Positions 520 through 26,442 of a stretch of DNA of 64,000 nucleotides are shown one piece after another. The position numbers and the translations under genes are program-made. How positions within the stretch are numbered: position 1 is the stretch's first letter; each line of letters opens with the position of its first letter. The notes under the pieces were generated by a model. It was not told where the DNA came from. It worked only from the letters and a program-made list of their open reading frames with translations, and did not search any database. Origin of the DNA: Syntrophomonadaceae bacterium (lineage in GTDB: Bacteria; Bacillota; Syntrophomonadia; Syntrophomonadales; Syntrophomonadaceae); NCBI GenBank assembly GCA_012520725.1, contig JAAYNQ010000002.1, positions 1 to 64,000 of the forward strand, written 5' to 3'.

Positions 520-3500
520 TCAAGCAAAAAGGCTAATTTGCGTGCTTTCAGGTAAATCAGCGAAACAATTATATTCCTTTAACACCGCCATGGCAGTTTT
601 ATTCAAGTGGGTCCGGGTTTGAAACTCTTCTACCGACACAAAGGCTTTATCCTGTCGAGCTTCCACTATCCCCAGGGCTGCATTTTCTCCTACATTGGGC
701 AGTGCAGAAAAAGGCAATAGTAAACCATTTTGTACTACCTTGAATTTATGAGCATCTGATTCATAAATATCCACCGGATAAAAAGAGAATCCACGCGCAT
801 ACATCTCCAGGGCCAACTCCAGAATAGTGATCAGCTTTTTCTCCTTAGGTGGAGCGGAATAGCCCATTTTTTCTATTTCCTTTATCCTTTTCCGCACTGA
901 GTCATAGCCGGCCAGGATAGTTCTGGCATCAAAATCCTCCGCCCGGATGCTGAAAAAACTGGCGTAGAATGCCAGAGGATAGTTTACTTTAAAGTAAGCT
1001 ATCCGGTAGGCCATGGTAACATAGGCTACTGCATGGGCCCGGGGAAACATATATTTTATTTTCTGGCAGGATTGTATGTACCAATCTGGTACCTGCTGCT
1101 TTTCCATCAAGGATATATCCTCTTTGCTCAGGCCTCGCCCCTTGCGCACTCGCTCCATAATGTTAAAGGCCTGTTTCTTCTCCACTCCTTGGCTGATTAA
1201 ATAAGTCATAATGTCGTCCCGGGTACAAATAACCTGTTTCAAATTGGATATACCTTGGCTAATTAAATCCTGGGCATTATTCAACCATACATCAGTACCA
1301 TGAGAAAGGCCGCTAATACGAACCAACTCTCCAAAGCTGGTAGGCCTGGTGGCTTCCAGCATCTGTCTAACAAAACGGGTACCAAATTCTGGTATCCCAA
1401 AAGTACCTACCCCGGAGTTAATATCTTCCTTCTTGATTCCCAAAACCTCTACTCCAGAAAATATTTGCATGGTATCAGGGTCATCCAGGCTGATGTTCGA
1501 AGCTTTAACCCCGGTTAACAGTTCCAGTTCTCTGATCACGGTAGGGTCATCATGGCCCAGAATATCCAATTTGACCAGCTGATCGCCGATGGCATGATAC
1601 TCAAAATGAGTGGTAACCACTCCGGAATCCTTTTTATCAGCTGGATGCTGCAGAGGAGTAAATTCATGTATATCACGGCCTTTGGGTACCACAATCAAAC
1701 CTCCGGGATGTTGCCCGGTGGTCCTTCTTACCCCACTTATCCCCCTGACCAGGCGTTTTATCTCACAGTTTTTCAAATTCAATTGCTGTTCTTCAAGAAA
1801 TTTCTTCACAAAGCCATAGGCAGTTTTTTCTGCTATGGTGGATATGGTACCGGCCCTAAATACATTCTCCTTCCCGAACAGCTCTTCTACATAATGGTGA
1901 GCCTGTATTTGGTAATCCCCGGAAAAGTTTAGATCAATATCCGGAACCTTATCCCCTTCAAATCCCAGGAAAGTCTCAAAAGGTATATTAAAGCCATCTT
2001 TATACATCTCTTGGCCACAATGGGGGCAGTTCCGGTCTTCCAGGTCTACCCCGCACTCAACCGCTGTACCTGCTGTAAAAAGGGTGTGATGACAAGCCCG
2101 GCATAAATAATGGGGGGGTAGAGGGTTGACTTCAGTAATATTAGTTAGATAGGCCACCAAAGAAGATCCTACCGATCCCCGGGAACCTACCAGATATCCG
2201 TCCTGATTGGATTTCTCCACTAATTTATGAGCAATCAGATATAAAACACTAAAACCATGTTCAGTGATGGAATGCAGTTCATGTTTTATGCGCTGCTCCA
2301 CTATTTCCGGCAGTTCTTTCCCGTATAGTTCATAAGCCCTTTTCCAGGTCAGTTTAGTAATTTCCTGGGCTGCACTGTCTATCTGGGGTGGATAAAAGCC
2401 ATCGGGTACCGGTTTGATATCCTCTATCATAGCGTTAATCTCCTGGGGATATTGCACCACTACCGCCAGAGCATTTTCTCTTCCCAGATAGGAGAATTCT
2501 TCCAACATCTCATCGGTGCTTTTAAAATAAAGGCTGGAATCGGAATCGCTATCATCATATCCCTGTCCGGCCTGAATAATGGTCCGGTAAATTTCATCCT
2601 CCGGTTCGATAAAATGCACATCGCCGCTGGCTACTACTGCTTTGCCCAGGCGAAGGCCCAGATTAAAAATATCCCGGTTAATCTTTTTTAACTGCTCTAT
2701 GCTATCCACTCTATTATCCCGTAGCAGGAATTCATTATTGCTGATAGGTTGTATTTCCAGGTAATCATAGAATTCAGCTATTCTAATTATTTCTTCTTCC
2801 TCTAGCCCATTCAAAAAGGCCTGATACAATTCGCCTGCCTGGCAGGCAGTCCCCAGAAACAGACCATCTCTATATTTTTCTAATAAATAACGAGGTATTT
2901 TAGGATGACGATAAAAATAATCCAAATAGGATAGACTTACTAGACGGTAGAGGTTTTTTAAGCCTTCTAGGTTACGAGCCAATAATATAACATGATAAGG
3001 ACGTTCTTTTTTGTCCGCTTCCACCAGATAGGCCTCCATGCCATAAATCACTTTAATACCATATTCCCTGGCTGCCTGGCAGGCATCGGGGAAAGCCTGA
3101 ACTCCTCCATGGTCAGTAATAGCAATAGCTGGATGCTTCCACTGAGCTGCTCGCTTGATCAATTCCTTGACATCAGCCAGTCCATCCATGGCACTCATTT
3201 TGGTATGGGCATGTAATTCAATCCGCTTAAACTTACTCTTATCTTCCCGGATTGCTTTGGGCAAAATCAGGTATTTATCCATTATCAAAACCAATTCCTT
3301 AACATAATTATCATAGCGAACACTGCCCATGGCTTTAATCCAGCTGCCAATCTCTATACCGTCATCCTCCTTAGTGTTGACAAAGCCCTTTACAATCAGA
3401 CTATCCCTATAATCACTCAAGTAATAATTAATGATGTACCTGCCGTCTTTCAAGGAGGTATAATCTTTATCCCATATTTCCCCTTCCACCACGGCCGAGC

Positions 3501-4143
3501 TCATACCTTCTTCAATATCACTAAGGCTAAGTGCCGGATGGTCTGGGGTTAATCCATTGGCTTTATTACGTTCAGCCTTTTTCCAGCTTTTAATAGGTGT
3601 GGGGATACTTATATCCAAAATTTCCAAGGGCCTGCGCCTAATGCCAGGGTCGGGCTGCAGTTGGGCAGCAGAATTAGCTTCCTCCCACACTGCTCTTACC
3701 AGAACCTGTAGGCAGTAATGTTCCTGGAACCACTGAGAAATACCTTCACATATACCCTTATTTAAGACATCATGATATACTTCCTCCTCAGTGCTTACCA
3801 GGTCTATTCCTTTATCTCTGATCCTCCATTCAATGCCTCCACTCCTGGGATAGCTCTCCAAACTGCAGATCTCTTCCTGGCATTGAGCTAGAATAGGCTC
3901 CAGACTGGACTGCCCAGAGCAGGGTATAATATGTAAGTTATCAAGAAAAAACCAATGTTTGTGCAGAGCCCGGGTGGTTTGATTTATAAGATCAGCAGGA
4001 AGAGGCTGTCCCATCTCAATGAACAACCTCCACTCTTTAGATGATCGTTTGATCTCTAGCCTTTTTATAAAAGTGTTTTTCCAGCAAGAAGCTAATTCCG
4101 GCTGGAGCAAACCCTCCAAGACCCTGAAGAAATCCTGCTTCAG
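520..4143 (-). CDS. polC: DNA polymerase III alpha subunit, PolC type, without exonuclease domain
   Basis: Replicative DNA polymerase of low-GC Gram-positives. Numbering from the TTG at 4119: N-terminal and OB region 1-295; PHP domain beginning at 300 with HxH at 303/305 and TDH at 335-337; polymerase core with the zinc-binding pairs C673/C676 and C698/C701; catalytic PDIDLNFSG at 726-734; C-terminal clamp-binding motif QISLF. In Bacillus PolC a proofreading DEDDh exonuclease of about 180 residues is inserted inside the PHP domain. Here YGMEAYLVEADKKE runs straight into RPYHVILLARN (residues 359-383), so that insert is missing and the protein is about 1,200 aa instead of about 1,430. Start: TTG 4119 has no usable ribosome site, whereas CTG at 4143 in the same frame lies 7 bases after GGGGAGGG, so I extend to CTG (1,207 aa). 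It lies 20 bp downstream of the mgtC-like gene. Confidence 0.95.
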   Translation of the reverse strand: MKQDFFRVLEGLLQPELASCWKNTFIKRLEIKRSSKEWRLFIEMGQPLPADLINQTTRALHKHWFFLDNLHIIPCSGQSSLEPILAQCQEEICSLESYPRSGGIEWRIRDKGIDLVSTEEEVYHDVLNKGICEGISQWFQEHYCLQVLVRAVWEEANSAAQLQPDPGIRRRPLEILDISIPTPIKSWKKAERNKANGLTPDHPALSLSDIEEGMSSAVVEGEIWDKDYTSLKDGRYIINYYLSDYRDSLIVKGFVNTKEDDGIEIGSWIKAMGSVRYDNYVKELVLIMDKYLILPKAIREDKSKFKRIELHAHTKMSAMDGLADVKELIKRAAQWKHPAIAITDHGGVQAFPDACQAAREYGIKVIYGMEAYLVEADKKERPYHVILLARNLEGLKNLYRLVSLSYLDYFYRHPKIPRYLLEKYRDGLFLGTACQAGELYQAFLNGLEEEEIIRIAEFYDYLEIQPISNNEFLLRDNRVDSIEQLKKINRDIFNLGLRLGKAVVASGDVHFIEPEDEIYRTIIQAGQGYDDSDSDSSLYFKSTDEMLEEFSYLGRENALAVVVQYPQEINAMIEDIKPVPDGFYPPQIDSAAQEITKLTWKRAYELYGKELPEIVEQRIKHELHSITEHGFSVLYLIAHKLVEKSNQDGYLVGSRGSVGSSLVAYLTNITEVNPLPPHYLCRACHHTLFTAGTAVECGVDLEDRNCPHCGQEMYKDGFNIPFETFLGFEGDKVPDIDLNFSGDYQIQAHHYVEELFGKENVFRAGTISTIAEKTAYGFVKKFLEEQQLNLKNCEIKRLVRGISGVRRTTGQHPGGLIVVPKGRDIHEFTPLQHPADKKDSGVVTTHFEYHAIGDQLVKLDILGHDDPTVIRELELLTGVKASNISLDDPDTMQIFSGVEVLGIKKEDINSGVGTFGIPEFGTRFVRQMLEATRPTSFGELVRISGLSHGTDVWLNNAQDLISQGISNLKQVICTRDDIMTYLISQGVEKKQAFNIMERVRKGRGLSKEDISLMEKQQVPDWYIQSCQKIKYMFPRAHAVAYVTMAYRIAYFKVNYPLAFYASFFSIRAEDFDARTILAGYDSVRKRIKEIEKMGYSAPPKEKKLITILELALEMYARGFSFYPVDIYESDAHKFKVVQNGLLLPFSALPNVGENAALGIVEARQDKAFVSVEEFQTRTHLNKTAMAVLKEYNCFADLPESTQISLFA

Positions 4144-4163
4144 TTTATTTCCCTCCCCGCCTT

Positions 4164-4826
4164 TTAGTTTAATCTTTCAATACTCCGCAGTCCTTTAACA
4201 TTGGATAATTCTTCAATAACCTGTTCAACGGAAAGACCGGCCGGGATTTGCAACAGCACTTCTATCTCCAGGTAGTTGTCTTCAACTTGTGTCAGCTGGA
4301 TGTTTTTAATCAATACGCATAAATCCCCTAAAATAGATCCTATAATCCCAACCTGGCCGGGCTTGTCTTCAACTACCATAACAATGCCTTTGTACTCCCG
4401 GCGGCCGGTGAACCTGGCTTCAAATTTAATAAAATAGATTAAAACAAACAGGATTAGGATAGTGGTAGCTATGGCGGGCACATATAAACCAGCCCCCACT
4501 GCCAAACCTATACAAGCAACTACCCACAGTCCGGCGGCAGTAGTAAGACCTTGGACTGAAGCCCCTTCCCGCATTATGGTTCCAGCCCCTAAAAAGCCAA
4601 TCCCGCTGATAACCTGGGCTGCTATTCGGCCTGGATCAGCATTTACCGTCTGGTAGTATTGCAGGTATATGTCAATGGAAACAATCATGGCTAAAGCAGA
4701 ACCAACACAGACCAGGGTGTAGGTTCTGAGTCCTGCCGGACGGCTCAGGCTCTCTCGCTCCAAGCCGATTAATCCGCCCAAAATCCCAGCCAGGGCAAGT
4801 TTAAATATTATTTCATAGATAAGCAT
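4164..4826 (-). CDS. MgtC/SapB family membrane protein with C-terminal ACT-like domain
   Basis: Predicted inner-membrane protein of the MgtC/SapB/YhiD family, 220 aa. The first ~145 residues are hydrophobic with several membrane segments and carry family hallmarks: GLIGLERE near residue 20, the RTYTLVCVGSA stretch, and GIGFLGAGTIMREG near 95. The last ~75 residues (VVEDKPGQVGIIGSILGDL and onward) look like an ACT regulatory domain, as in the longer members of the family. In pathogens MgtC is linked to low-magnesium survival; in environmental Firmicutes the function is not established. It lies between proS and polC, 44 bp after proS, and is probably cotranscribed with polC. Confidence 0.85.
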   Translation of the reverse strand: MLIYEIIFKLALAGILGGLIGLERESLSRPAGLRTYTLVCVGSALAMIVSIDIYLQYYQTVNADPGRIAAQVISGIGFLGAGTIMREGASVQGLTTAAGLWVVACIGLAVGAGLYVPAIATTILILFVLIYFIKFEARFTGRREYKGIVMVVEDKPGQVGIIGSILGDLCVLIKNIQLTQVEDNYLEIEVLLQIPAGLSVEQVIEELSNVKGLRSIERLN

Positions 4827-4870
4827 GGGTTAATACACATCCTTGTTTATTGGTGGCTGAGTTTTCTTGC

Positions 4871-6580
4871 TTAATACTGGCTTAATATACTGTTTATTTC
4901 CTCTACTATATCCTCAACGGCAATAAGCACGGTTTCATTTTCCCATCTTTTTTTGACTTCCACCTTGTTTTCCTGCAGAGCCTTGGGGCCAATAGTAATA
5001 CGCAGAGGTATACCGGTCAAGTCTGCGTCCTTAAACTTAACTCCAGCTCTTTCGTCCCGGTCATCAATAATTACCTCCAGCCCCTGGCCACTTAACTGCT
5101 CATATATGCTCCAGGCCAGATCCATCTGTTCGGTCTTTTTAGTATTGATGGGAACAATGATAAGCTGGTAAGGAGCTATGGGTAGAGGCCATATTATACC
5201 ATTCTCATCATGGTTTTGTTCAACTGCGGCAGCCATGGTGCGGGAAATGCCTATTCCGTAACAGCCCATGATAAATGGCCTTTCCTGACCGTTCTTATCC
5301 AGGAAAGTGGCTTTCATCGCCTCTGAATACTTGGTACCCAGTTTGAATATATGTCCTACCTCAATGCCCCGGGTAGTATCCAACTCCGCAGAACAGACCG
5401 GACAAGGATCTCCTTTTATTGCATTTCTAAGATCGGCTATGGTTTCCGGGACAAAATCCCGGCCCAGATTGACATTCATCAAGTGGTACCCATCCTCGTT
5501 GGCGCCACAGATGAAATTGTCCATGAGCTCTATTTCCTGGTCGGCGTAAACCTTAAACTCAGCCCCTACCGGCCCCAGAGAGCCCACACTAACCCCCAGA
5601 ACCTGACTGACCTGGTTTTCATCGGCTATTAGCAGCTCATTGCATCCCAGCAGGTTTTTCAGTTTGACCTCGTTTAATTCCCTATCACCCCGGATGACGG
5701 CCCCTACATATTCTCCATCAGCCCAGTATATAAGGGTTTTAACAATGCTTTCAGCCGGAACTGCCAGACTATGCATCACATCCTCTACCGTTCTCACTCC
5801 CGGGGTGTGTATTTTCTCCAGAGGCCTGGCTTCTGCTCTTTTGGCTCCATCCGGCTCTGGAGCAGGACATTGTGCTTTTTCTACATTAGCCGCATAATGA
5901 CATTTATCACAATAGACAATTTCCGCTTCTCCGCTGGAGGCCATAACCATAAATTCGTGGCTCTCGTTGCCCCCGATGGCTCCGCTGTCGGCTTCCACCA
6001 CCCGGTACTTAAGATTCATTCTTTCAAATATCCGGCTATAGGCTTCGTACATCTTTTTATAGGAAAGATCCAATCCATCTTCATCTATATCGAAGGAATA
6101 AAGGTCTTTCATAATGAATTCCCGGCCTCGCATCAAGCCAAAGCGCGGTCTGATTTCATCCCGGTATTTATTCTGAATTTGATACAAGAGCAAGGGCAGA
6201 TCCCGGTAAGAATGCACATCCTGCTTGACTAAAGTGGTGATTATTTCCTCATGGGTGGGCCCCAAAGCAAAGGAGCGCTTATGGCGGTCCTTCAGTCTAA
6301 ACATTTCATCTCCATATACCTCCCAGCGGCCTGATTCCTGCCACAATTCAGCAGGTTGGATAATTGGCATAAGTACTTCCTGCCCCCCAGCCCTATCCAT
6401 TTCTTCCCGCACTATGTTCATTATCTTTTTTAACACCCGGAAAGCCAGAGGCAGATAGGAGTATACACCTCCACTGTTTTTCCGAATGAATCCGGCCCGC
6501 AGCAAGAGTTGATGACTGACTATCTCTGCCTCGCTAGGTACCTCTCTTAAAGTTGGATTGAATATTTCCGATGACTTCAA
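4871..6580 (-). CDS. proS: Prolyl-tRNA synthetase (bacterial type)
   Basis: Cytoplasmic class II enzyme that charges tRNA-Pro. The 569-aa length fits the bacterial ProS with an editing insertion. Visible features: class II motif 2 region with [12 protein letters not shown] near residue 107 and [20 protein letters not shown] near 140; the YbaK-like insertion domain around 225-390 ([24 protein letters not shown]), which hydrolyses mischarged Ala-tRNA-Pro; motif 3 with [17 protein letters not shown] near 440; and the C-terminal anticodon-binding domain. TTG start at 6580 with GGAGG 9 bases upstream. It follows ispG by 66 bp; proS after ispG/rseP is the usual Firmicute order. Confidence 0.97.
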
Positions 6581-6646
6581 GTCCCTACCTCCTTGTGTGC
6601 TAATCAGCCGTTGATGAAAAAGAAAACTTGTCTTATCCCTTGCTGT

Positions 6647-7705
6647 TTATTCATAATCAGCAATAGCTTTCATCAATTCATCAAGCAGCTCATTTTCCGG
6701 CACTTTCTTGATAATTTTACCCTTCTTAAATAATATACCCAAACCTCTTCCCCCGGCTATACCAATATCAGCATCCCGTGCTTCTCCAGGCCCATTAACT
6801 ATACATCCCATAACTGCAACCTTTAAGTTGCGATCCATAAACCTCACTCTATGATCTACTTCTTCAACTATACCAAATAAGTCTATCTCACACCGGCCGC
6901 AGGTGGGACAAGAGATTAGTTCCACTCCCCGCTGGCGCAAGTCGGCACTGCGCAGAATTTCATAGGCAGCCCATACTTCGTAAACGGGATCTGAACTTAT
7001 GGATACCCTTAAGGTATCTCCGATACCTTCATTCAGTAAAATGCCCAAACCCATAGCTGATTTGACCAGTGCCCGGGGAATAGTACCAGCTTCGGTAATA
7101 CCCAGGTGCAGAGGATAGTCCACCATCTCAGCCATCAATCGATAAGCCTGTACACTTAAGGCCACTGAGGAAGCTTTCAGGGATATTTTTATATCATAGA
7201 AACCCATGTCTTCTAATACCTTGACATTCTCCATAGCACTTTCAACCATGGCCTGGGGACCGGGGGCTTTATATCTGGCCAATATCTTTTTATCCAGAGA
7301 GCCCGCATTGACCCCAATTCTAATGGGTATTTTCTTATCCCGGCAGGCTTTTACCACCTCTTGCACTTTGCTTTTAGCCCCAATATTTCCTGGATTGATT
7401 CTTAGCCCATCACAGCCTGCCTTTATACTCTCCAAGGCCAGGCGATGGTCAAAATGTATATCAGCAATAAGGGGTATCTTGATTCTCGCTTTAATCGAGG
7501 CCAGGGCCTGAGCCGCTTCCCGATCCAATACCGCCACCCGGATCAATTCACAGCCTGCTTCCTGCAAGCTAATTATCTGTTTTACGGTTGCCTCAACATT
7601 ACGGGTATCGGTAGTAGTCATGGATTGAACCACAATGGGATGATCTCCGCCTACCGGCACCTCTCCTACCCATACTACCCGGCTGTCTCTTCGCTTTTTT
7701 CTCAT
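6647..7705 (-). CDS. ispG: 4-hydroxy-3-methylbut-2-enyl diphosphate synthase (flavodoxin/ferredoxin)
   Basis: IspG (GcpE) converts methylerythritol cyclodiphosphate to HMBPP in the MEP isoprenoid pathway, using a 4Fe-4S cluster. Cluster ligands are visible: C266 and C269 in SCPTCGRC, C301 in GCIVNGPGEA, and the matching Glu308. The N-terminal TIM-barrel half begins with VVQSMTTTDT and contains ADIHFDHRLA near 81-90. At 352 aa it is the normal bacterial size. The ATG overlaps the rseP stop by 4 bases (ATGA), which shows translational coupling. It shares the operon with dxr, another MEP pathway gene, and with uppS, which consumes the product. Confidence 0.97.
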   Translation of the reverse strand: MRKKRRDSRVVWVGEVPVGGDHPIVVQSMTTTDTRNVEATVKQIISLQEAGCELIRVAVLDREAAQALASIKARIKIPLIADIHFDHRLALESIKAGCDGLRINPGNIGAKSKVQEVVKACRDKKIPIRIGVNAGSLDKKILARYKAPGPQAMVESAMENVKVLEDMGFYDIKISLKASSVALSVQAYRLMAEMVDYPLHLGITEAGTIPRALVKSAMGLGILLNEGIGDTLRVSISSDPVYEVWAAYEILRSADLRQRGVELISCPTCGRCEIDLFGIVEEVDHRVRFMDRNLKVAVMGCIVNGPGEARDADIGIAGGRGLGILFKKGKIIKKVPENELLDELMKAIADYE

Positions 7706-8733
7706 CCTCTAAAAAACCTCATAATATCATTGAAAGTAACCAGGACAATGAGCAACATCAGAAACAGGAATCCCAACCAGTGAATAAATCCCTCTTTTTC
7801 AGGTGCTACTGGCTTCCTGCGTACCGCCTCCACCAGGGCGAATAGAATTCTACTACCATCCAGAGCGGGTATGGGCAAGAGGTTAAGAATACCCAAATTG
7901 ATACTCAAAAAAGCGGAAAAACTTAAAAGGAATACGGTACCCACCCGGGCAGCATCTCCAATCAGGCCTACGATCCCTACTGGACCAGCAATATCAGCTG
8001 CTGAGGCCCCACCAGTGATCATTATCCACAGGCCCCCTAATAGTACCAAAGTAAGCTCATAAGTTTGCTGCAGTCCTATTTTAACGGCGGTAAGTAAACC
8101 CTGCTTTTCATATATCACCTGGCTGGATACTCCAATGATAGATAAACCGGTATTGGGATTTTCCTCAGTAATTACCTCCAGCTGCTGCTGCTGCCCATCC
8201 CGCTCCAGTTCCAGGATTACTGGAGTACCGGGAGCCTGCTCGGTAAGCCGGCTGGTAAATTCCTGCCAGTTCTTAACCTGCACTCCATCCACCGCCAGTA
8301 TGCGATCACCTGGAAGCATACCGGCTGCTTCCGCCGGTTGCCCCTCAAATACCATGCCAATTATGGGTTCATCGGTAGCCTGAGGTATTCCGATAAAGGT
8401 ATAGCTGTAAATGAATATCAAAAGGGCCAGCACGAAATTCATGAAAGGCCCGGCAAAGGATACCCGGATTTTCTCCAGGGGGGTGCGATGGCTATAACCA
8501 TCAGGATGGGATTGATCTCCCGGCTCCTCTCCAGCCATACGGACAAATCCTCCCAGAGGAAACACTCTGATGGAGTATTCTACTCCGTTTCGTTTCCAGG
8601 AAATGAGCTTGGGCCCAAAGCCAATGGCAAACTCGTGTACCGGTATACCCACTCTCCGAGCAGCTATAAAATGCCCCGTCTCATGAAACAGTATTAATAC
8701 AGCTATAATTATCAGGGCAATCAATATGGTCAT
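7702..8733 (-). CDS. rseP: RIP metalloprotease RseP (site-2 protease family)
   Basis: Membrane-embedded zinc protease that cleaves transmembrane substrates such as anti-sigma factors and leftover signal peptides. The HExxH motif is in the first membrane helix (LFHETGHF, His17-Glu18-His21). A PDZ domain spans roughly 110-185 (GMLPGDRILAVDGVQVKNW). The second catalytic motif, NLLPIPALDG near 285, supplies the Asp ligand. The length of 343 aa is typical. ATG start with AAGGTGGG upstream. The position between dxr and ispG matches Bacillus rasP. Which sigma pathway it serves here cannot be told from the window. Confidence 0.95.
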   Translation of the reverse strand: MTILIALIIIAVLILFHETGHFIAARRVGIPVHEFAIGFGPKLISWKRNGVEYSIRVFPLGGFVRMAGEEPGDQSHPDGYSHRTPLEKIRVSFAGPFMNFVLALLIFIYSYTFIGIPQATDEPIIGMVFEGQPAEAAGMLPGDRILAVDGVQVKNWQEFTSRLTEQAPGTPVILELERDGQQQQLEVITEENPNTGLSIIGVSSQVIYEKQGLLTAVKIGLQQTYELTLVLLGGLWIMITGGASAADIAGPVGIVGLIGDAARVGTVFLLSFSAFLSINLGILNLLPIPALDGSRILFALVEAVRRKPVAPEKEGFIHWLGFLFLMLLIVLVTFNDIMRFFRG

Positions 8734-8853
8734 TAATTAAATCCCACCTTTATTGCTTTAATCTATTTATGGACTTATAGAACAAGTCCTTGACTGGTAA
8801 AAAAGGATATCCATTTTGCTTTTACACCTTGAGCAATTGCTAGCAAAATAGAA

Positions 8854-10014
8854 CTAAAGCAGTTTGGATAACTCATGGCTCCTTTGCCTGGCCCAGCTAT
8901 CTGCTTGCAAAATGCTCTCCAGGTTCGGGTTCTTCACCAAGTCATGAACCTCCATCACCCTTTCCACCAGAATTGCTATACCAGTAAAAGGGATTTCCCC
9001 CTTTAAGAACTTATTAACTGCTACTTCATTGGCTGCATTTAGTACTGCCGGCATAGTGCCTCCAGTCTGCCCGGCCTGATAAGCCAGACCCAGAGCCGGA
9101 AATCTCAATATATCCGGGGCTTCAAAATGTAGCGCACCCAGGAGAGTCAGATCCAAATCCGCTGCTGGTGAAACCATTCGTTCCGGATAGCTCAGGGCGT
9201 ATTGTATAGGGATTCTCATGTCGTGAGATCCCAGATGAGCAAGGAACGAACCATCCACGAACTCCGCCAAAGAATGGATTATACTTTCTCTTTGTACTAC
9301 CACGTTTATTCTATCATAATTTATCCCAAATAAATGATGGGCTTCAATTACCTCCAGGCCTTTATTCATCAGGGTAGCTGAGTCCACGGTGATTTTGGGT
9401 CCCATAACCCAGGTAGGATGTTGTAAGGCCATTTCCACGGTAACCCGATCCAATCGACTTTGCTCCCAGTCCTTAAACGGGCCCCCGGAAGCAGTCAACC
9501 ATATTCTTTTTAAATATCGTTCTTCTCCTTTAATGCACTGAAACACCGCCGAGTGTTCACTATCCACCGGGATCAACTCCGCTTCATACTGCCGGGCCTG
9601 TTCCATAACTATATCACCGGCGGCTACCAGGGTTTCTTTGTTAGCCAGAGCCACCCTTTTCCCGGCCTTAAGGGCGGCCAGAGTGGGTTCAATACCAATG
9701 GCTCCGCTAAGGGCAATGACTACCAGGTCTGCAGTGGGCCAGGCGGCCAGTTGGCACAGCCCCTCCAATCCGGATAAAACCGTAGTACCTACCGCAGCCT
9801 CTTGTCTCATTTCCTTATAAGCAAGCGCATCGCCTACTGCTATTACATTGACTTGATGCTGGCGAGCCTGCTCTGCTAGCAGCTCTACCTCATCCCGGGC
9901 TGCAATTCCCAATAACTCGAATCGCTCCTTCTGCTTATCAATAACATCCAGGGTTTGCCGGCCAATAGAACCGGTAGAACCCAATACCACAACCTTTTTT
10001 TTCTCCAAGCTCAT
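8854..10014 (-). CDS. dxr: 1-deoxy-D-xylulose-5-phosphate reductoisomerase
   Basis: Dxr (IspC) makes 2-C-methyl-D-erythritol 4-phosphate, the committed step of the MEP isoprenoid pathway, using NADPH and a divalent metal. The NADPH-binding GSTGSIGRQTLDVID is at the N-terminus. The metal and substrate region follows: PVDSEHSAVFQC near 150, TASGGPF near 180, and LMNKGLEVIEAHHLF near 215. The frame opens upstream at a GTG (10029), but the ATG at 10014 has GGAGG (10026-10022) 7 bases upstream and overlaps the stop of the preceding permease gene as ATGA, so I use it (386 aa). The gap to rseP is 120 bp and holds nothing recognisable. Confidence 0.97.
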   Translation of the reverse strand: MSLEKKKVVVLGSTGSIGRQTLDVIDKQKERFELLGIAARDEVELLAEQARQHQVNVIAVGDALAYKEMRQEAAVGTTVLSGLEGLCQLAAWPTADLVVIALSGAIGIEPTLAALKAGKRVALANKETLVAAGDIVMEQARQYEAELIPVDSEHSAVFQCIKGEERYLKRIWLTASGGPFKDWEQSRLDRVTVEMALQHPTWVMGPKITVDSATLMNKGLEVIEAHHLFGINYDRINVVVQRESIIHSLAEFVDGSFLAHLGSHDMRIPIQYALSYPERMVSPAADLDLTLLGALHFEAPDILRFPALGLAYQAGQTGGTMPAVLNAANEVAVNKFLKGEIPFTGIAILVERVMEVHDLVKNPNLESILQADSWARQRSHELSKLL

Positions 10015-11129
10015 CTGTCTTGCCTCCACTTAAAGCTTTCAAATAAACCGGCCCGGTAGCAGGCAACAATAATGACTACGATTATTGGCCCTAATAGAAG
10101 TCCCACCCCACCCCAGAGTTTTAGACCAAAATAAAGAGCCATCAAGGTAATCAAAGGATGTAAGCCAATATTCTCGCCTATAATCTTAGGTTCAGTGAAC
10201 TGCCGAACCAGGGATATAAATAAATATATAGTCAACAAACCTATCCCTAATTTAGTATGGCCCAGCATAAACTCAATGAAAATCCAGGGAACAAAGAGCA
10301 AACCGGGCCCCAAAATAGGGAGCATATCCAGAAATCCTACTATCATTCCTATGGTTAGAACATAATCCACTCCCAGAATCTGTAACAAGATCATGGTTAA
10401 TACCGCGGTAATACTTATCAATATTAAATAGGCTCTCAGGAATCCCAGCAGAATCTTAACCAACTGATTAAATATCTTAGTGGTTTTACTCTGGGTATTC
10501 AGAGAAAGAAATCTATAAAGAAACTCTTTAATCAGATAACGATCACTGCTTATGAGATAAGTAGCGATGGCGGCAATCATTATAAAAGCAAACAAACCGG
10601 GCAGTAGTGAAACAGTGGCCGTTAATAAATCAATGCTGCTGCTGACCATGGAACTCAAGGTTTTTATGCTTTGCTGCAGGCTGTTGTGCAGAGCCTCCTG
10701 CACTTCTGGGGGTAGGTTAAGCTCCAAAAAAAATAGTCTTAAGTCACTGACGGCAGTCAAAAACGATTCAGTAATCCCGTCCGAGTATGAAACCAGAGTA
10801 GGAACCAGTTTCACCAGATCTTTGATTATGCGAGAAATCAACCAGGATATTATATAAAAGAAACCACCAACAAAAAGCAAGAGACTTAGGGCTACCGCCC
10901 AACCCCGCTTCATTTTGGTTTTGCGCTGCAGCCAAATGACGGCTGGTTCAATGATTACTGCCATAATTAAAGCAATTACAAATGGCAGCAATAATGATGG
11001 CAGATAAGCGAGTACCCCTCCCATCACGGGCAGTAGATAGGCAGTTACCAGATATGCAGCCAGAAGAATCAGAACCAAGATGCCCAGTTTCACCAACAGT
11101 TTTACATATCGGTTTAATTCAGGATCCAA
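10011..11129 (-). CDS. AI-2E family transporter / sporulation-type membrane protein (YtvI-like)
   Basis: Polytopic membrane protein of the AI-2E transporter (UPF0118) superfamily, about 372 aa, close to the size of Bacillus YtvI. Hydrophobic helices flank a long extracytoplasmic stretch (about 90-200). The C-terminal part has the family core GLLFVPWIFIEFMLGH, followed by EPKIIGENIGLHPLITLMALYFG. Start: TTG at 11129 has GAGGG 6 bases upstream; a longer reading from TTG 11147 lacks a good site. It lies in the cdsA-dxr interval and is coupled to dxr by a 4-base overlap. The substrate is unknown; some members export isoprenoid-related or small hydrophobic molecules, but nothing in the sequence shows that here. 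Confidence 0.8.
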   Translation of the reverse strand: MDPELNRYVKLLVKLGILVLILLAAYLVTAYLLPVMGGVLAYLPSLLLPFVIALIMAVIIEPAVIWLQRKTKMKRGWAVALSLLLFVGGFFYIISWLISRIIKDLVKLVPTLVSYSDGITESFLTAVSDLRLFFLELNLPPEVQEALHNSLQQSIKTLSSMVSSSIDLLTATVSLLPGLFAFIMIAAIATYLISSDRYLIKEFLYRFLSLNTQSKTTKIFNQLVKILLGFLRAYLILISITAVLTMILLQILGVDYVLTIGMIVGFLDMLPILGPGLLFVPWIFIEFMLGHTKLGIGLLTIYLFISLVRQFTEPKIIGENIGLHPLITLMALYFGLKLWGGVGLLLGPIIVVIIVACYRAGLFESFKWRQDR

Positions 11130-11183
11130 TACATTCCCTCTTTTCAAAAACTGTTATCGGCTATCAACCGGCAATTTGTAGGT

Positions 11184-11969
11184 CTAAACACAATAAAGAA
11201 AAAAATAATAAACCAGCGGCAGCACCATTAGAAAACTGTCAAATCTATCCAGTACACCTCCGTGTCCGGGAATGATTTTTCCGCTATCTTTAACCCCAAA
11301 ATATCGTTTCATGGCTGATATCATGAGGTCACCTATTTGTGCCATTATACTGGCACTTAAGCCTAATATCAATACATAGGCAAAATTTGTAGAGGTAATT
11401 TCTATTATACTGAAAAACAGAGCCGAGACCATCATAGACAATAGTACTGCTCCCACTGCACCTTCCCGGGTTTTCTTAGGACTTAATTCCGGAGCCAGGG
11501 TCTTATGGCCCCAAAAGCGACCGGCAAAATATCCACCGGTATCGCTGGCCCAGGTAAGCAAGAAAGCTAATACCATAATCCAAAAACGATCATCCAGATA
11601 ATAAATTCTAAAAGCAAAGCTGATAAAAAAGCCCAGGTAAAAGGCCCCATAAAAACTCAAGGCGATATCACTGATATTCAAGCCCGGATATCCAAGAATC
11701 AAAAATATGGCCATTAATAGCATTATCAACAGCAAAGCCGGGAGTAAATAGGAAGTATCCGCAGCTTGTAACATAATTATAAGCAAAAGCAGATAACCCG
11801 GAATATACTGGGGACTATAGCCCTTGACCGACATCATGCGATAGTATTCAAACAAAGCTATTATTCCCAGGAGGATAAAAAAGCCCCACCAATAATAAGC
11901 GCCCAGGTAAAGTATGCTTAATAATAAAGGTATACCGATTACTGCGCTAAATATTCTTACTTTTAACAT
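11184..11969 (-). CDS. cdsA: Phosphatidate cytidylyltransferase
   Basis: Integral membrane enzyme that makes CDP-diacylglycerol from phosphatidate and CTP, the branch point to all acidic phospholipids. The CDP-alcohol signature is complete near the C-terminus: SAMKRYFGVKDSGKIIPGHG followed by GVLDRFDS. The N-terminal two thirds is a series of hydrophobic helices. The length of 261 aa is usual. The start overlaps the end of uppS by 23 bp, so the two are translationally linked, as in most bacteria (frr-uppS-cdsA). Confidence 0.96.
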   Translation of the reverse strand: MLKVRIFSAVIGIPLLLSILYLGAYYWWGFFILLGIIALFEYYRMMSVKGYSPQYIPGYLLLLIIMLQAADTSYLLPALLLIMLLMAIFLILGYPGLNISDIALSFYGAFYLGFFISFAFRIYYLDDRFWIMVLAFLLTWASDTGGYFAGRFWGHKTLAPELSPKKTREGAVGAVLLSMMVSALFFSIIEITSTNFAYVLILGLSASIMAQIGDLMISAMKRYFGVKDSGKIIPGHGGVLDRFDSFLMVLPLVYYFFLYCV

Positions 11970-12720
11970 TTTTCCCTTCCTGCTTGGAGTTGTTTAAGCC
12001 CCCAAACCTGCGATCCCTTTTAGCATAATCACTAATCGCCTGCAATAGGTGCTCCCGGGTAAACTCAGGCCAGCTTACATCAGTAATCCACAGTTCGGTA
12101 TAAGCCACTTGCCATAAAAGAAAATTGCTCAGCCTAAATTCACCAGCGGTTCTGATAAGCAAATCAGGATCAGGTAGATCATGAGTATATAAATACTTGG
12201 AAAACAGGTCTTCATCCAAATCATCGATATTGACCCGACCCTCCAGCAAATCCCGACCCCAACTCTTTACCCCCCGCACAATCTCTGGACGACTACCGTA
12301 ATTTATGGCCAGATTAAAGGCCATAGCTTGATTATTTCGGGTAAGTTCTATAGCTCTTTCAATCTCTTTTACACATTTTGGAGGCAGAGAATAATAGTCC
12401 CCCCAAACATTAATCTTTATATTGTTTTCGTGCAGTTCCTGAAGTTCCCGGTTTAAGAATTCTATCAAGAGATCCATAAGATAACTTACTTCACTTTTAG
12501 GCCGTCTCCAATTTTCTGTAGAAAAAGCATAAAGGGTCAGGGCCTGCACCTTAATCTCAATACAGGCCTCAACTACCCGTTTAATTGCCTTCATCCCTTC
12601 TCTATGTCCCATGGTTCTAGGCAATAAGCGCTTACTGGCCCACCTGCCATTTCCATCCATAATGATAGCAATATGACGAGGTAAATTTTCAAAGCCAGTA
12701 GCATTTTCTTTCTTATGCAT
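11947..12720 (-). CDS. uppS: Isoprenyl transferase (undecaprenyl diphosphate synthase)
   Basis: Cis-prenyltransferase that makes undecaprenyl diphosphate, the lipid carrier for peptidoglycan. The signature HIAIIMDGNGRWA lies near residue 17, with TLYAFSTENWRRP near 65. The C-terminal RTAGEFRLSNFLLWQ and ELWITDVSWPEF are family-typical. The frame is open to 12867, but the ATG at 12720 has AAGGG at good distance and gives the usual length (257 aa); the upstream extension does not resemble the family. The usual loop sequence is RTxGExRxSNFLLWQ, so the active site looks intact. Confidence 0.96.
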   Translation of the reverse strand: MHKKENATGFENLPRHIAIIMDGNGRWASKRLLPRTMGHREGMKAIKRVVEACIEIKVQALTLYAFSTENWRRPKSEVSYLMDLLIEFLNRELQELHENNIKINVWGDYYSLPPKCVKEIERAIELTRNNQAMAFNLAINYGSRPEIVRGVKSWGRDLLEGRVNIDDLDEDLFSKYLYTHDLPDPDLLIRTAGEFRLSNFLLWQVAYTELWITDVSWPEFTREHLLQAISDYAKRDRRFGGLNNSKQEGKNVKSKNI

Positions 12721-12823
12721 ACCATCCCTTCTCTCGCCCAAACTATAATACCCCCTAAAATGGGGGCATATGGATACCATTATAAATATAGGTAAAAGAT
12801 AGCGCAATCTAAATTCATGAGCA

Positions 12824-13381
12824 TTATACTTCCATAATTTCTTTTTCCTTGGCCTGTAATATCCCATCCACTTTTTTCACATACTTATCAGTGAATTTTT
12901 GGATTTCATCCATACCTTTTTTGCTTTCATCTTCAGAAAGCAGTTTTTCTTTTTCACTCATCTTGATCATGTCATTGGAGTCCCGACGTATATTACGAAT
13001 CGCTACTTTAGTCTCTTCGCCCTTTTTCTTGACTACCTTTACCAAATCCTTTCTCCTCTCCTCGGTCAGCTGGGGTATGGCAATACGAATAAGATTGCCA
13101 TCATTAGATGGGGTTACCCCCAGGTCGGATTTAAATATGGCTTTTTCAATAGCCGGAATAATACTCTTATCCCAGGGCTGTATAACTAAGAGTCTGGCCT
13201 CAGGTACGGTAATATTGCCCAATTGATTGATGGGGGTAGCTTCCCCATAATAATCAACCATAATCTTTTCAACCATAGCCGGATTAGCCCTTCCCGCCCT
13301 CAGGGTGGAAAGGTCCTTGGTCAGGAACTCAATACTCTTTTGCATCTTTTCTTCAGCATCACGCAAAATATCTTTTATCAT
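12824..13381 (-). CDS. frr: Ribosome recycling factor
   Basis: RRF splits post-termination ribosomes together with EF-G. At 185 aa it has the exact family length. Family features: DLSTLRAGRANPAMVEKI near residue 23, YYGEATPINQLGNITVPEAR, and KKKGEETKVAIRNIRRD near 130. ATG start with GGGAGG 8 bases upstream, 4 bp after the pyrH stop. It belongs to the rpsB-tsf-pyrH-frr translation operon. Confidence 0.98.
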   Translation of the reverse strand: MIKDILRDAEEKMQKSIEFLTKDLSTLRAGRANPAMVEKIMVDYYGEATPINQLGNITVPEARLLVIQPWDKSIIPAIEKAIFKSDLGVTPSNDGNLIRIAIPQLTEERRKDLVKVVKKKGEETKVAIRNIRRDSNDMIKMSEKEKLLSEDESKKGMDEIQKFTDKYVKKVDGILQAKEKEIMEV

Positions 13382-13385
13382 TGTA

Positions 13386-14102
13386 TTACCTCCCTACGTA
13401 GGTGCCAATTCTTTCGCCCATAACCGCCTTAAGAATATTCCCGTATTTGGTTAAATCAAACACAATTATCGGTATATTGTTCTCCATACATAGCGAGGCC
13501 GCGGTGGAATCCATTACACCCAATCCCTTGTTGATAACCTCTATATACTCCAGGAAATTATATTTGATTGCTCCCGGATTATGGACTGGATCAGAATCGT
13601 ATACTCCATCTACTTTCTTGGCCATTAGTATGGCCTCTGCTTCTATCTCCGCAGACCTCAAAGCCGCAGCAGTATCAGTAGAAAAATAGGGGTTGCCGGT
13701 CCCCCCTGCAAAAATAACCACCCGGCCTTTTTCCAGATGACGAATTGCTCGACGCCTGATATAGGGCTCCGCTACTTCCTTCATTTCAATGGCAGACATA
13801 ACCCGGGTAGGCATGTTGAGCTGTTCCAAGGCATCCTGCAAGGCCAGCGAATTTATTACCGTAGCCAACATCCCCATATAATCTGCAGTAGCTCTATCCA
13901 TGCCCTTGGCGCTGCCGGCAACGCCACGCCAAATGTTGCCTCCACCAACTACGATCCCGGTTTCGACTCCCTTTTCTACTACTTCGACTACCTGTTTGGA
14001 TATATCAGTAATAATCTCATGATTGATGCCGTAGCCGTCTTTTCCAGCCAGAGCTTCGCCACTGAGTTTTAGTACCACCCGCCTATATGGACCAGCTTGC
14101 AA
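13386..14102 (-). CDS. pyrH: Uridylate kinase
   Basis: Bacterial-type UMP kinase of the amino-acid-kinase fold; it phosphorylates UMP to UDP for pyrimidine nucleotide synthesis. Visible: [13 protein letters not shown] at the N-terminus, [11 protein letters not shown] near 50, and the C-terminal [19 protein letters not shown]. Length 238 aa, normal. TTG start with GGAGG 9 bases upstream. It sits 24 bp after tsf and 4 bp before frr. Confidence 0.97.
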
Positions 14103-14126
14103 AATATAACCTCCTAGATTAAAAGC

Positions 14127-14774
14127 CTATTTTAATTGGGCCATGACCTCAGCTACAAAATCATTATCTTTTTTCTCAATTCCTTCTCCCACCTCATAAC
14201 GGGCAAATCGTCTGATGTTAATGTTCTCACCAATTTTGGCTACACTCTCATGTATAAGTTGTTCTACAGTGATATCAGGATCTTTGATAAAAGCCTGTTC
14301 CAGGAGACAGTTTTCCTTATAATACTTCTCTATTCTTCCTTCTACCATCTTTTCAATTATTTTTTCCGGTTTACCCTCTTCCAGGGCTTGAGCCCGAAGT
14401 ACAGCTTTTTCCCGTTCGATTTCATTATCTGGAACATCAGTCCGGCTTACATATTCCGGTTTGGCAGCTGCAATCTGCATGGCAATATCATGCACCAATT
14501 GTTGGAATTGATCGGTTTTAGCTACAAAATCGGTCTCACAATTGACTTCTACTAAAACTCCAATTCTTCCTCCGCCATGAATATACGAAGCCACTACTCC
14601 TTCACTGGCAATTCGGCCGGCTTTTTTAGCTGCCTTGGCCAAACCTTTGGTTCTCAATTCATCTATAGCTTTTTCCATATCCCCTGCCGTAGCTACCAGA
14701 GCGTTTTTACAATCCATCATACCGGCTCCGGTCCTTTCCCGCAGTTCTTTAACCATTGCTGCTGTAATATTCAC
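14127..14774 (-). CDS. tsf: Translation elongation factor Ts (short form)
   Basis: EF-Ts regenerates EF-Tu-GTP. The N-terminal module [19 protein letters not shown] is classic. The core contains [26 protein letters not shown] around residue 62-87 (given here as the motif region), and the C-terminal [16 protein letters not shown] closes it. At 215 aa it is the short Firmicute form, like that of Thermus, with only one core subdomain. GTG start with GGAGG 8 bases upstream. It follows rpsB and a weak hairpin. Confidence 0.97.
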
Positions 14775-14840
14775 TAATACAACCTCCTAATCATCGGATT
14801 ATTACAATATAGTAATATAGTATAGTAACAGGCTGGATAG

Positions 14841-14865
14841 AAAAAAGGGAACATAAGCCCCCTTT
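14841..14865 (-). terminator. Weak hairpin between rpsB and tsf
   Basis: On the minus strand AAAGGG pairs with CCCTTT across a 10-base loop, followed by a run of T. It lies directly after the rpsB stop and before tsf. It looks like a leaky intrinsic terminator that would lower tsf expression relative to rpsB; this is inference from shape and position. Confidence 0.45.
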
Positions 14866-14868
14866 ATT

Positions 14869-15567
14869 TTAAGCAGTAACCTGTTCTCCCTGCCTGCCTT
14901 CCAATACCGCATCGGCTATGCGCGAGGAAATCAGTTTTACAGCCCTGATGGCATCATCATTGCCGGGAATCACATAATCTATCTCGTCCGGATCACAATT
15001 AGTGTCCACAATAGCAACCACTGGTATATTAAGCTTACGCGCTTCTGCCACCGCAATTTTTTCTTTCCTTGGATCCACTACAAACACAGCCCCGGGCAAC
15101 TTATCCATATCCTTTATGCCACCTAAAAAGCGCTCTAATCTTTCTTTCTCATTGAGAAGACGGGCCACCTCTTTTTTGGTCAAGACATCCATAGCGCCGC
15201 TTTCTTCCATCTGTTCCAGCTGTTTCAAACGCAGTACTCTTTGACGAATAGTCTTGTAGTTGGTAAGCATTCCACCCAACCAGCGCTGATTTACAAAGTG
15301 CATCCCACAGCGACGAGCTTCTTCCTTGATGGTTTCCTGGGCTTGCTTTTTGGTCCCGACAAAAAGAACACTTTTTCCATCGGCCACGGTGTTTTTAATA
15401 AAAGCATAGGCCTCATCAAACTTCTTCACCGTTTGCTGCAGATCAATAATATAAATCCCATTGCGCTCCATATAAATATAGGTAGCCATCTTGGGATTCC
15501 ACCTGCGGGTTTGATGACCAAAGTGAACTCCTGCTTCCAGCAATTGCTTCATAGTAATAACTGACAT
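14869..15567 (-). CDS. rpsB: 30S ribosomal protein S2
   Basis: S2 binds the 30S subunit late and helps recruit S1. Visible family signatures: [20 protein letters not shown] at the N-terminus, [25 protein letters not shown] near 92-105, and [20 protein letters not shown] near 184. Length 232 aa. ATG start with AAAGGAGG. It is the first gene of an operon that runs on to tsf, pyrH and frr, driven by the promoter at 15672-15701. Confidence 0.98.
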
Positions 15568-25032: not shown

Positions 25033-26442
25033 TTAACGTCCCCGGGACCCGGCTTCCACCAGCAGGCTTTCCATCTGGCTATCACCGAAAAGGTCGTAGA
25101 CTCTTATGGCTATCCGGTAAGTATCTTGTAAGGGCAGCTTTAACTTAATGCTAAGCTGCAGGCTGGAGTCATAGTGTTTTTTATTCCGTAAAATCTGAAC
25201 CTGGGAATAAAAGGTTTCCCCGTCATAGTCCAAATCCACTTCCCAGAAATCGATGACACTGCCAAAGTGCCAGTTCTCCTGCAAATCCTGAATATGTCTG
25301 CTATCCGGTTTATAGTCTTCGATGCCGATTAAGATGAGGGCATAATCATGGTCATAAGGCTGAATCAGGGGATCCATTAGGCGCAAAGATCCGGTGTTAG
25401 CCTGGAGCGGAGGTCCTAAGTGTTCCACAGCAAATGAGCCTAATCCTTGTTTAATCAAACGCTTTATGCTGGTCTGAATGGCTATAGGGCTATTATCACA
25501 ACTTAGCCAGCAGCGCTCCAATTGTTGGCTGATGGCTGCGGTGGTTCCTGAACCAGCGTAAAAGTCAGCTACCAGTGAGCCTGGGCTGGATGCGGATAGA
25601 ATAATTCTTCTTAGTAGAGCTTCTGGCTTTTGGGTGGGAAATTTCAGGTTTTCCGCGGCAGTAGGACTGAGTATTTTATTAATATCCGTCCACCAATCCT
25701 GCATCAAAGCCCCCTGGGAATGCAGTTTATATTTATCACCCTTGACCTTGGTCAAGCCTCTTTCACGGGTGGCGGCGGTATACGGACGATACTGGGGATT
25801 AAATATGTATTCATCGCTTTTAGCGTACCATAGAATCAAGTCATGTTTACGATGAAAATGTCTTTTAGTACCACTGCCTCCGCTATAACACCATACTATT
25901 TCATTAACCAGGTTGTGAGGAGAAAATATTTCATCCAATAAGATTTTCACATAATGACTCACATGCCAATCCAAATGCACCAATAAACTGCCCTGTACTG
26001 ACAATAACTCTTTCATCAGGCATAATCGAGGATAAAGGTGATCCAGATATTGCTCTATATCTGCAAATCCCGGATCAACAAAAACCGGTCGACTTATGTA
26101 TTCCCAGGGCCGGTCCTCAGCAGCCTTAAATTTGACCCGGGAATGGTAGGTATTGGAGCTAAGATAAGGGGGATCTATGTATATAAGATCAAAAGCCTTC
26201 CCATAGCCACTATGGAGCAAAAACTGCATCACCTGGAGGTTATCACCCTGGAAAATCCGTCCTGAAGGCTTATTATCCTTAGGGGGCAGCGACTCAGGCA
26301 GAAATAATTCAAATATGGAATCCCTGTCCCCAGCAGCGTAGGGGTGAACTATTTCTATAATATGATGATCAAAATCCTTATCATTAACTGGAGCATGGCT
26401 AGTTTTACTATCCCAGGCCAGTCTAATACTAAACTCACTCAA
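25033..26442 (-). CDS. Solitary site-specific DNA-methyltransferase (adenine-specific, beta class)
   Basis: S-adenosylmethionine-dependent DNA methyltransferase, 469 aa. Catalytic motif IV is DLIYIDPPYLSSNTYHSR near residue 84, and motif I (VADFYAGSGTTAA) comes later, near 290. This IV-then-I order defines the beta group, and DPPY points to N6-adenine. SLLVHLDWHVSHYVK and NEIVWCYSGGSGTKRHFHRKHD are typical of Mod-like enzymes. The last ~130 residues form a separate C-terminal domain (ENWHFGSVIDFWEVDLDYDG) seen with some Mod-type proteins. No restriction gene is nearby, so it looks like an orphan. TTG start with AAGGAG 9 bases upstream. It faces the plus-strand mini-operon tail to tail. Target sequence unknown. 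Confidence 0.85.
   Translation of the reverse strand: MSEFSIRLAWDSKTSHAPVNDKDFDHHIIEIVHPYAAGDRDSIFELFLPESLPPKDNKPSGRIFQGDNLQVMQFLLHSGYGKAFDLIYIDPPYLSSNTYHSRVKFKAAEDRPWEYISRPVFVDPGFADIEQYLDHLYPRLCLMKELLSVQGSLLVHLDWHVSHYVKILLDEIFSPHNLVNEIVWCYSGGSGTKRHFHRKHDLILWYAKSDEYIFNPQYRPYTAATRERGLTKVKGDKYKLHSQGALMQDWWTDINKILSPTAAENLKFPTQKPEALLRRIILSASSPGSLVADFYAGSGTTAAISQQLERCWLSCDNSPIAIQTSIKRLIKQGLGSFAVEHLGPPLQANTGSLRLMDPLIQPYDHDYALILIGIEDYKPDSRHIQDLQENWHFGSVIDFWEVDLDYDGETFYSQVQILRNKKHYDSSLQLSIKLKLPLQDTYRIAIRVYDLFGDSQMESLLVEAGSRGR

Follow-up and report, generated by a model that had tools for sequence, protein, structure and literature searches.

The PolC-type DNA polymerases III of Bacillus subtilis, Staphylococcus aureus and Geobacillus kaustophilus (Gka; structure 3F2B) carry a DEDDh exonuclease embedded in the PHP domain. 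PolCs lacking this insertion were described from Clostridia and Negativicutes in 2013 by Timinskas et al., and accounted for 6% of PolCs overall and 16% within PolC + DnaE1 sets (PMC3919608). That survey considered the PolC + DnaE1 replication system experimentally uncharacterised (PMC3919608), and no further work on exo-less PolC beyond two surveys was found in the open-access literature. In the DnaE1 of Mycobacterium tuberculosis (Mtb) the PHP domain itself is a nuclease: mutation of D226, the eighth metal ligand, abolishes its PHP exonuclease. Gka PolC, in which one PHP ligand is altered, has no PHP exonuclease (PMC5636811).

The PolC encoded in the window (the whole 64,000-nucleotide stretch analysed, from a Syntrophomonadaceae genome) shares the domain order, PHP fold and polymerase DxD of the classical enzymes, but it lacks the embedded exonuclease and, unlike Gka PolC, has all nine PHP ligands intact. 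Its architecture does not differ from that of the exo-less PolCs described in 2013: there is no Exo insertion, the taxonomic range is the same and includes Syntrophomonadaceae kin, and DnaE1 is encoded alongside. It is therefore a further member of a kind already known (PMC3919608), and the novelty implied by the first-pass annotation is not supported. What is new here is the frequency of the exo-less form in an even genome sample, its repeated changes on a tree, the decay intermediates, and a genome-wide check for exonucleases. The nine ligands that form the trinuclear zinc centre of PHP-exonuclease DnaE1 from M. tuberculosis and Thermus are all present; however, Mtb DnaE1 has a 29-residue loop beside the PHP site, whereas the window protein has a short loop and is a PolC, not a DnaE.

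The window probably encodes a functional PolC that lost its DEDDh domain anciently, leaving PHP nucleases, its own and/or that of DnaE1, to proofread. PolC would have been inherited vertically in Syntrophomonadaceae, the embedded domain having been lost in an ancestor of the order or earlier, as we infer from the tree and the distribution. The enzyme is probably still of high fidelity within a PolC + DnaE1 replisome, where the 3'-5' proofreader is most likely the trinuclear-metal PHP nuclease of PolC, of DnaE1 or of both.

The polC gene and its junction

The polC frame contains no stops from about 4146 down to 520 (Table 1). Candidate starts (window 4119-4160) are an in-frame CTG at 4143, a few bases after GGGGAGGG, and the TTG at 4119, the first ATG, GTG or TTG of the frame. 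Pfam models for the PolC N-terminal domain I, PHP, polymerase, fingers and HhH all match (PF14480, PF02811, PF07733, PF17657, PF14579), with a single PHP match in hmmscan followed by the polymerase, finger and HhH domains. The protein is a PolC-type DNA polymerase III alpha subunit, scoring well above the cut-offs of the equivalogs TIGR01405 (1387 bits against 1043) and NF001688 (1504 bits against 873). Both equivalogs match in two stretches; those of TIGR01405 cover model positions 2-175 and 375-1211 when the whole genome is searched, so that the exonuclease is the sole part skipped.

Table 1. Positions of polC and its features in the window.
Feature	Position	Strand	Basis or remark
polC, exo-less PolC-type DNA polymerase III alpha subunit	520..4146 (5' end about 4146)	-	about 1200 aa
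PHP domain, uninterrupted, residues 310-460	2767..3219	-	PF02811 match
Junction YGMEA-YLVEADKKERP-YH, 11 residues in place of an about 210-residue DEDDh exonuclease	2992..3045	-	insert-length comparison and DNA reading
Stretch with the nine PHP metal-ligand residues, all present	2614..3213	-	motif HHDHEHCDH
Polymerase active-site motif PDIDLNF, residues 735-741	1924..1944	-	motif at residue 735

The DNA is continuous through the site of the exonuclease. One open frame, ITDHGGVQAF...YGMEAYLVEADKKERPYHVILL, covers 3120-2980 on the minus strand, with YGMEA at 3045-3031 and RPYH at 3003-2992. The first-pass annotation had described a PolC without its exonuclease, in which the two parts of PHP are joined directly with neither frameshift nor stop and the PHP and polymerase residues are kept, and this description is borne out: the embedded DEDDh exonuclease is confirmed to be missing. 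The insert that it had assumed in exo-bearing relatives is real, although it totals about 210 residues and not 180. A diverged exonuclease elsewhere in the protein, which would have undermined that description, is ruled out, as hmmscan gave no RNase_T or DEDDh match anywhere along it. Among 178 PolCs the distance from YGxEA to the next PHP histidine is sharply two-humped, with 10-23 residues in nearly all exo-less and 207-215 in exo-bearing proteins, and four intermediates of 37, 42, 82 and 196. The window PolC looks intact and, to judge by its conserved residues, functional.

By names read from the translations, polC is preceded by a conserved cluster, rpsB-tsf-pyrH-frr-uppS-cdsA-dxr-rseP-ispG-proS (window 520-15567), with a gene for an MgtC-like membrane protein between proS and polC (4164-4826). 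An ORF resembling DNA methyltransferases, with a DPPY motif, lies at 25033-26442, inside the region from topA/dprA to a sigma factor.

The PHP site

The nine PHP metal ligands of the window PolC are H312, H314, D321, H346, E371, H385, C435, D509 and H511, which is the pattern HHDHEH[C/H]DH of Mtb DnaE1-type PHP proofreading polymerases. In an AlphaFold2 model the PHP region has a pLDDT of 90.7 and the short turn is accommodated in the fold; the model is closest to PolC (top Foldseek match 3f2b) and next to PHP structures of DnaE. The site may thus cleave DNA and proofread, although we know of no PolC PHP domain with demonstrated exonuclease activity.

HHDHEHCDH is found in 127 of 128 exo-less PolCs, the exception being a D to E change, and in 45 of 50 exo-bearing ones. 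All five departures among the latter are D to N at the eighth ligand, a change absent from the 128 exo-less proteins. These five look like one clade and hence about one event, so the contrast is not taken as independent proof. Since the nine ligands are also kept in 45 of 50 exo-bearing clostridial PolCs, their conservation may reflect another role, structural or as a pyrophosphatase.

The need for any proofreader in PolC would fall away if the exo-less enzyme were an accessory polymerase and DnaE1, with its own intact PHP, copied the chromosome, an idea raised for PolC by Timinskas et al. 2013 (PMC3919608). DnaE1 is present in the window's genome (L001, above the cut-off of the DnaE-type alpha-subunit equivalogs) with nine of nine PHP ligands, and 39 of 159 phylum genomes have no PolC match. 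A dispensable accessory would, however, be expected to decay or vanish more often, whereas full-length PolC with conserved polymerase and PHP residues is kept throughout the genus and in nearly all genomes of the family and order with a readable copy. An accessory role is therefore unlikely, and a replicative PolC with PHP proofreading is preferred.

Distribution, gain and loss

Among named records the nearest, at 83% and 72% identity, are from Syntrophomonadaceae and Syntrophomonas MAGs, with S. zehnderi at 60%. Wherever a PolC from the genus, family or order can be read through the site, it has the exo-less junction; a few copies end at contig ends short of it, and some family genomes have no long PolC match. 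An even phylum sample of 159 genomes, with completeness of 90% or more, yielded PolC matches in 120. Forty-five of these carry the exonuclease, four are cut at contig ends and unassessable, and the other 71 have no intact copy of it (G181, which holds a relic, among them). The exo-less form is thus the commoner one in this sample (71 of 116 assessable PolC-bearing genomes), and the gap to the 6% of 2013 probably reflects how deep lineages and MAGs were sampled.

The PolC tree was built from 85 core sequences with the insert left out, using a quick search and SH-aLRT support only, and its deep branches are weakly resolved. The exo trait changes eight times on it, five of these changes being forced by well-supported branches. 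The AU test rejected the hypothesis that exo-less PolC arose only once, strongly with all rows (p 3e-60) and more weakly (p 0.024) once the family with recent loss and several long or odd rows were removed. The insert has the same insertion site and DEDHD at the catalytic positions in all 50 exo-bearing proteins, and distances in the exonuclease track those in the core (Mantel r 0.795, 0 of 2000 permutations), which fits one old insertion followed by losses.

Two sister proteins show such a loss in progress. L187 (G181:C143:35400-41000) retains a 196-residue exonuclease relic that is still matched by the PolC-exo profile (E 4.6e-4) and reads AAGGE at the five catalytic positions, against DEDHD in the 50 exo-bearing proteins, so that none of the five catalytic residues survives, while its sister L186 (G153:C164:17400-22300) has only a 37-residue Gly/Pro-rich scar. 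Other members of this family, G117 and G206, keep the domain intact. In another exo-less PolC, L172 (G121:C9:11500-16500), an 82-residue low-complexity linker occupies the exonuclease site and is possibly another scar of the lost domain.

The opposite polarity, with PolC originally lacking the exonuclease and acquiring it only afterwards, perhaps by repeated insertion or through spread by recombination, would suit the exo-less majority in the phylum sample, and the number of trait changes is independent of the root, so that the tree alone is no guide to gain or loss. The identical insertion site, the uniform insert length, the joint evolution of exonuclease and core, and the visible decay of L187 and L186, which shows loss in at least one lineage, make this improbable. 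The trait changes are accordingly read as losses and not regains, a preference that comes from the decay series and not from the tree.

Entire Firmicutes lineages may replicate without any DEDDh exonuclease, the embedded one having been lost repeatedly (at least five tree changes, with a catalytically dead relic in one lineage) once an active PHP proofreader in PolC had made it redundant; this explanation is put forward tentatively. If the PolC PHP does proofread, these lineages would be natural domain-deletion experiments, and related species with an intact, dead, scarred or absent exonuclease would make it possible to ask directly which nuclease underlies replication accuracy in PolC + DnaE1 bacteria.

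Candidate proofreaders in the window's genome

For the window's PolC, the first-pass annotation had allowed for proofreading in trans, for its absence, or for its takeover by PHP. All three were reasonable; the analyses favour takeover. Neither RNase_T (at E<=10) nor the PolC-exo profile matched anything in the window's genome, while the latter reached E 1e-47 to 1e-86 when other genomes were searched likewise; these profiles cover DEDDh exonucleases, and an unrelated proofreading nuclease would lie outside their reach. RNase_T likewise found nothing in the four other genomes of the genus, and two single-contig genomes, G025 from the family and G050 from the order, yielded no free-standing DEDDh protein either. 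On these profile searches the free-standing DnaQ-like exonuclease proposed as a possible partner is rejected for this genome. Although free-standing PolC-exo-like proteins do exist in some family members (G007, G021, G031), proofreading in trans by such an enzyme is very improbable in this lineage.

The 3'-5' exonuclease region of Pol I is vestigial, its PF01612 match starting at profile position 23 with the first catalytic motif missing. With no DEDDh exonuclease detectable, the Pol I exonuclease vestigial, and the nine ligands intact in both PolC and DnaE1, the putative PHP nucleases are the only recognised candidates for proofreading in this genome, and takeover by PHP is favoured.

That the junction arose as a deletion artefact of sequencing or assembly has a negligible chance, for although the window's assembly is fragmented (212 contigs, 4% estimated contamination), independent genomes carry the same junction in the genus (where the protein is 72-83% identical), the family and the order, at identities from 83% down to about 48% and including single-contig genomes.

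Besides the DnaE1, the window's genome encodes a second, error-prone-like DnaE (L002, G000:C147:240-6182) in which the eighth PHP ligand is changed from Asp to Asn. Immediately upstream of it are a 342-aa ORF that weakly resembles Y-family polymerases and an 80-aa ORF, a neighbourhood that looks like an ImuB-DnaE2 type cassette.
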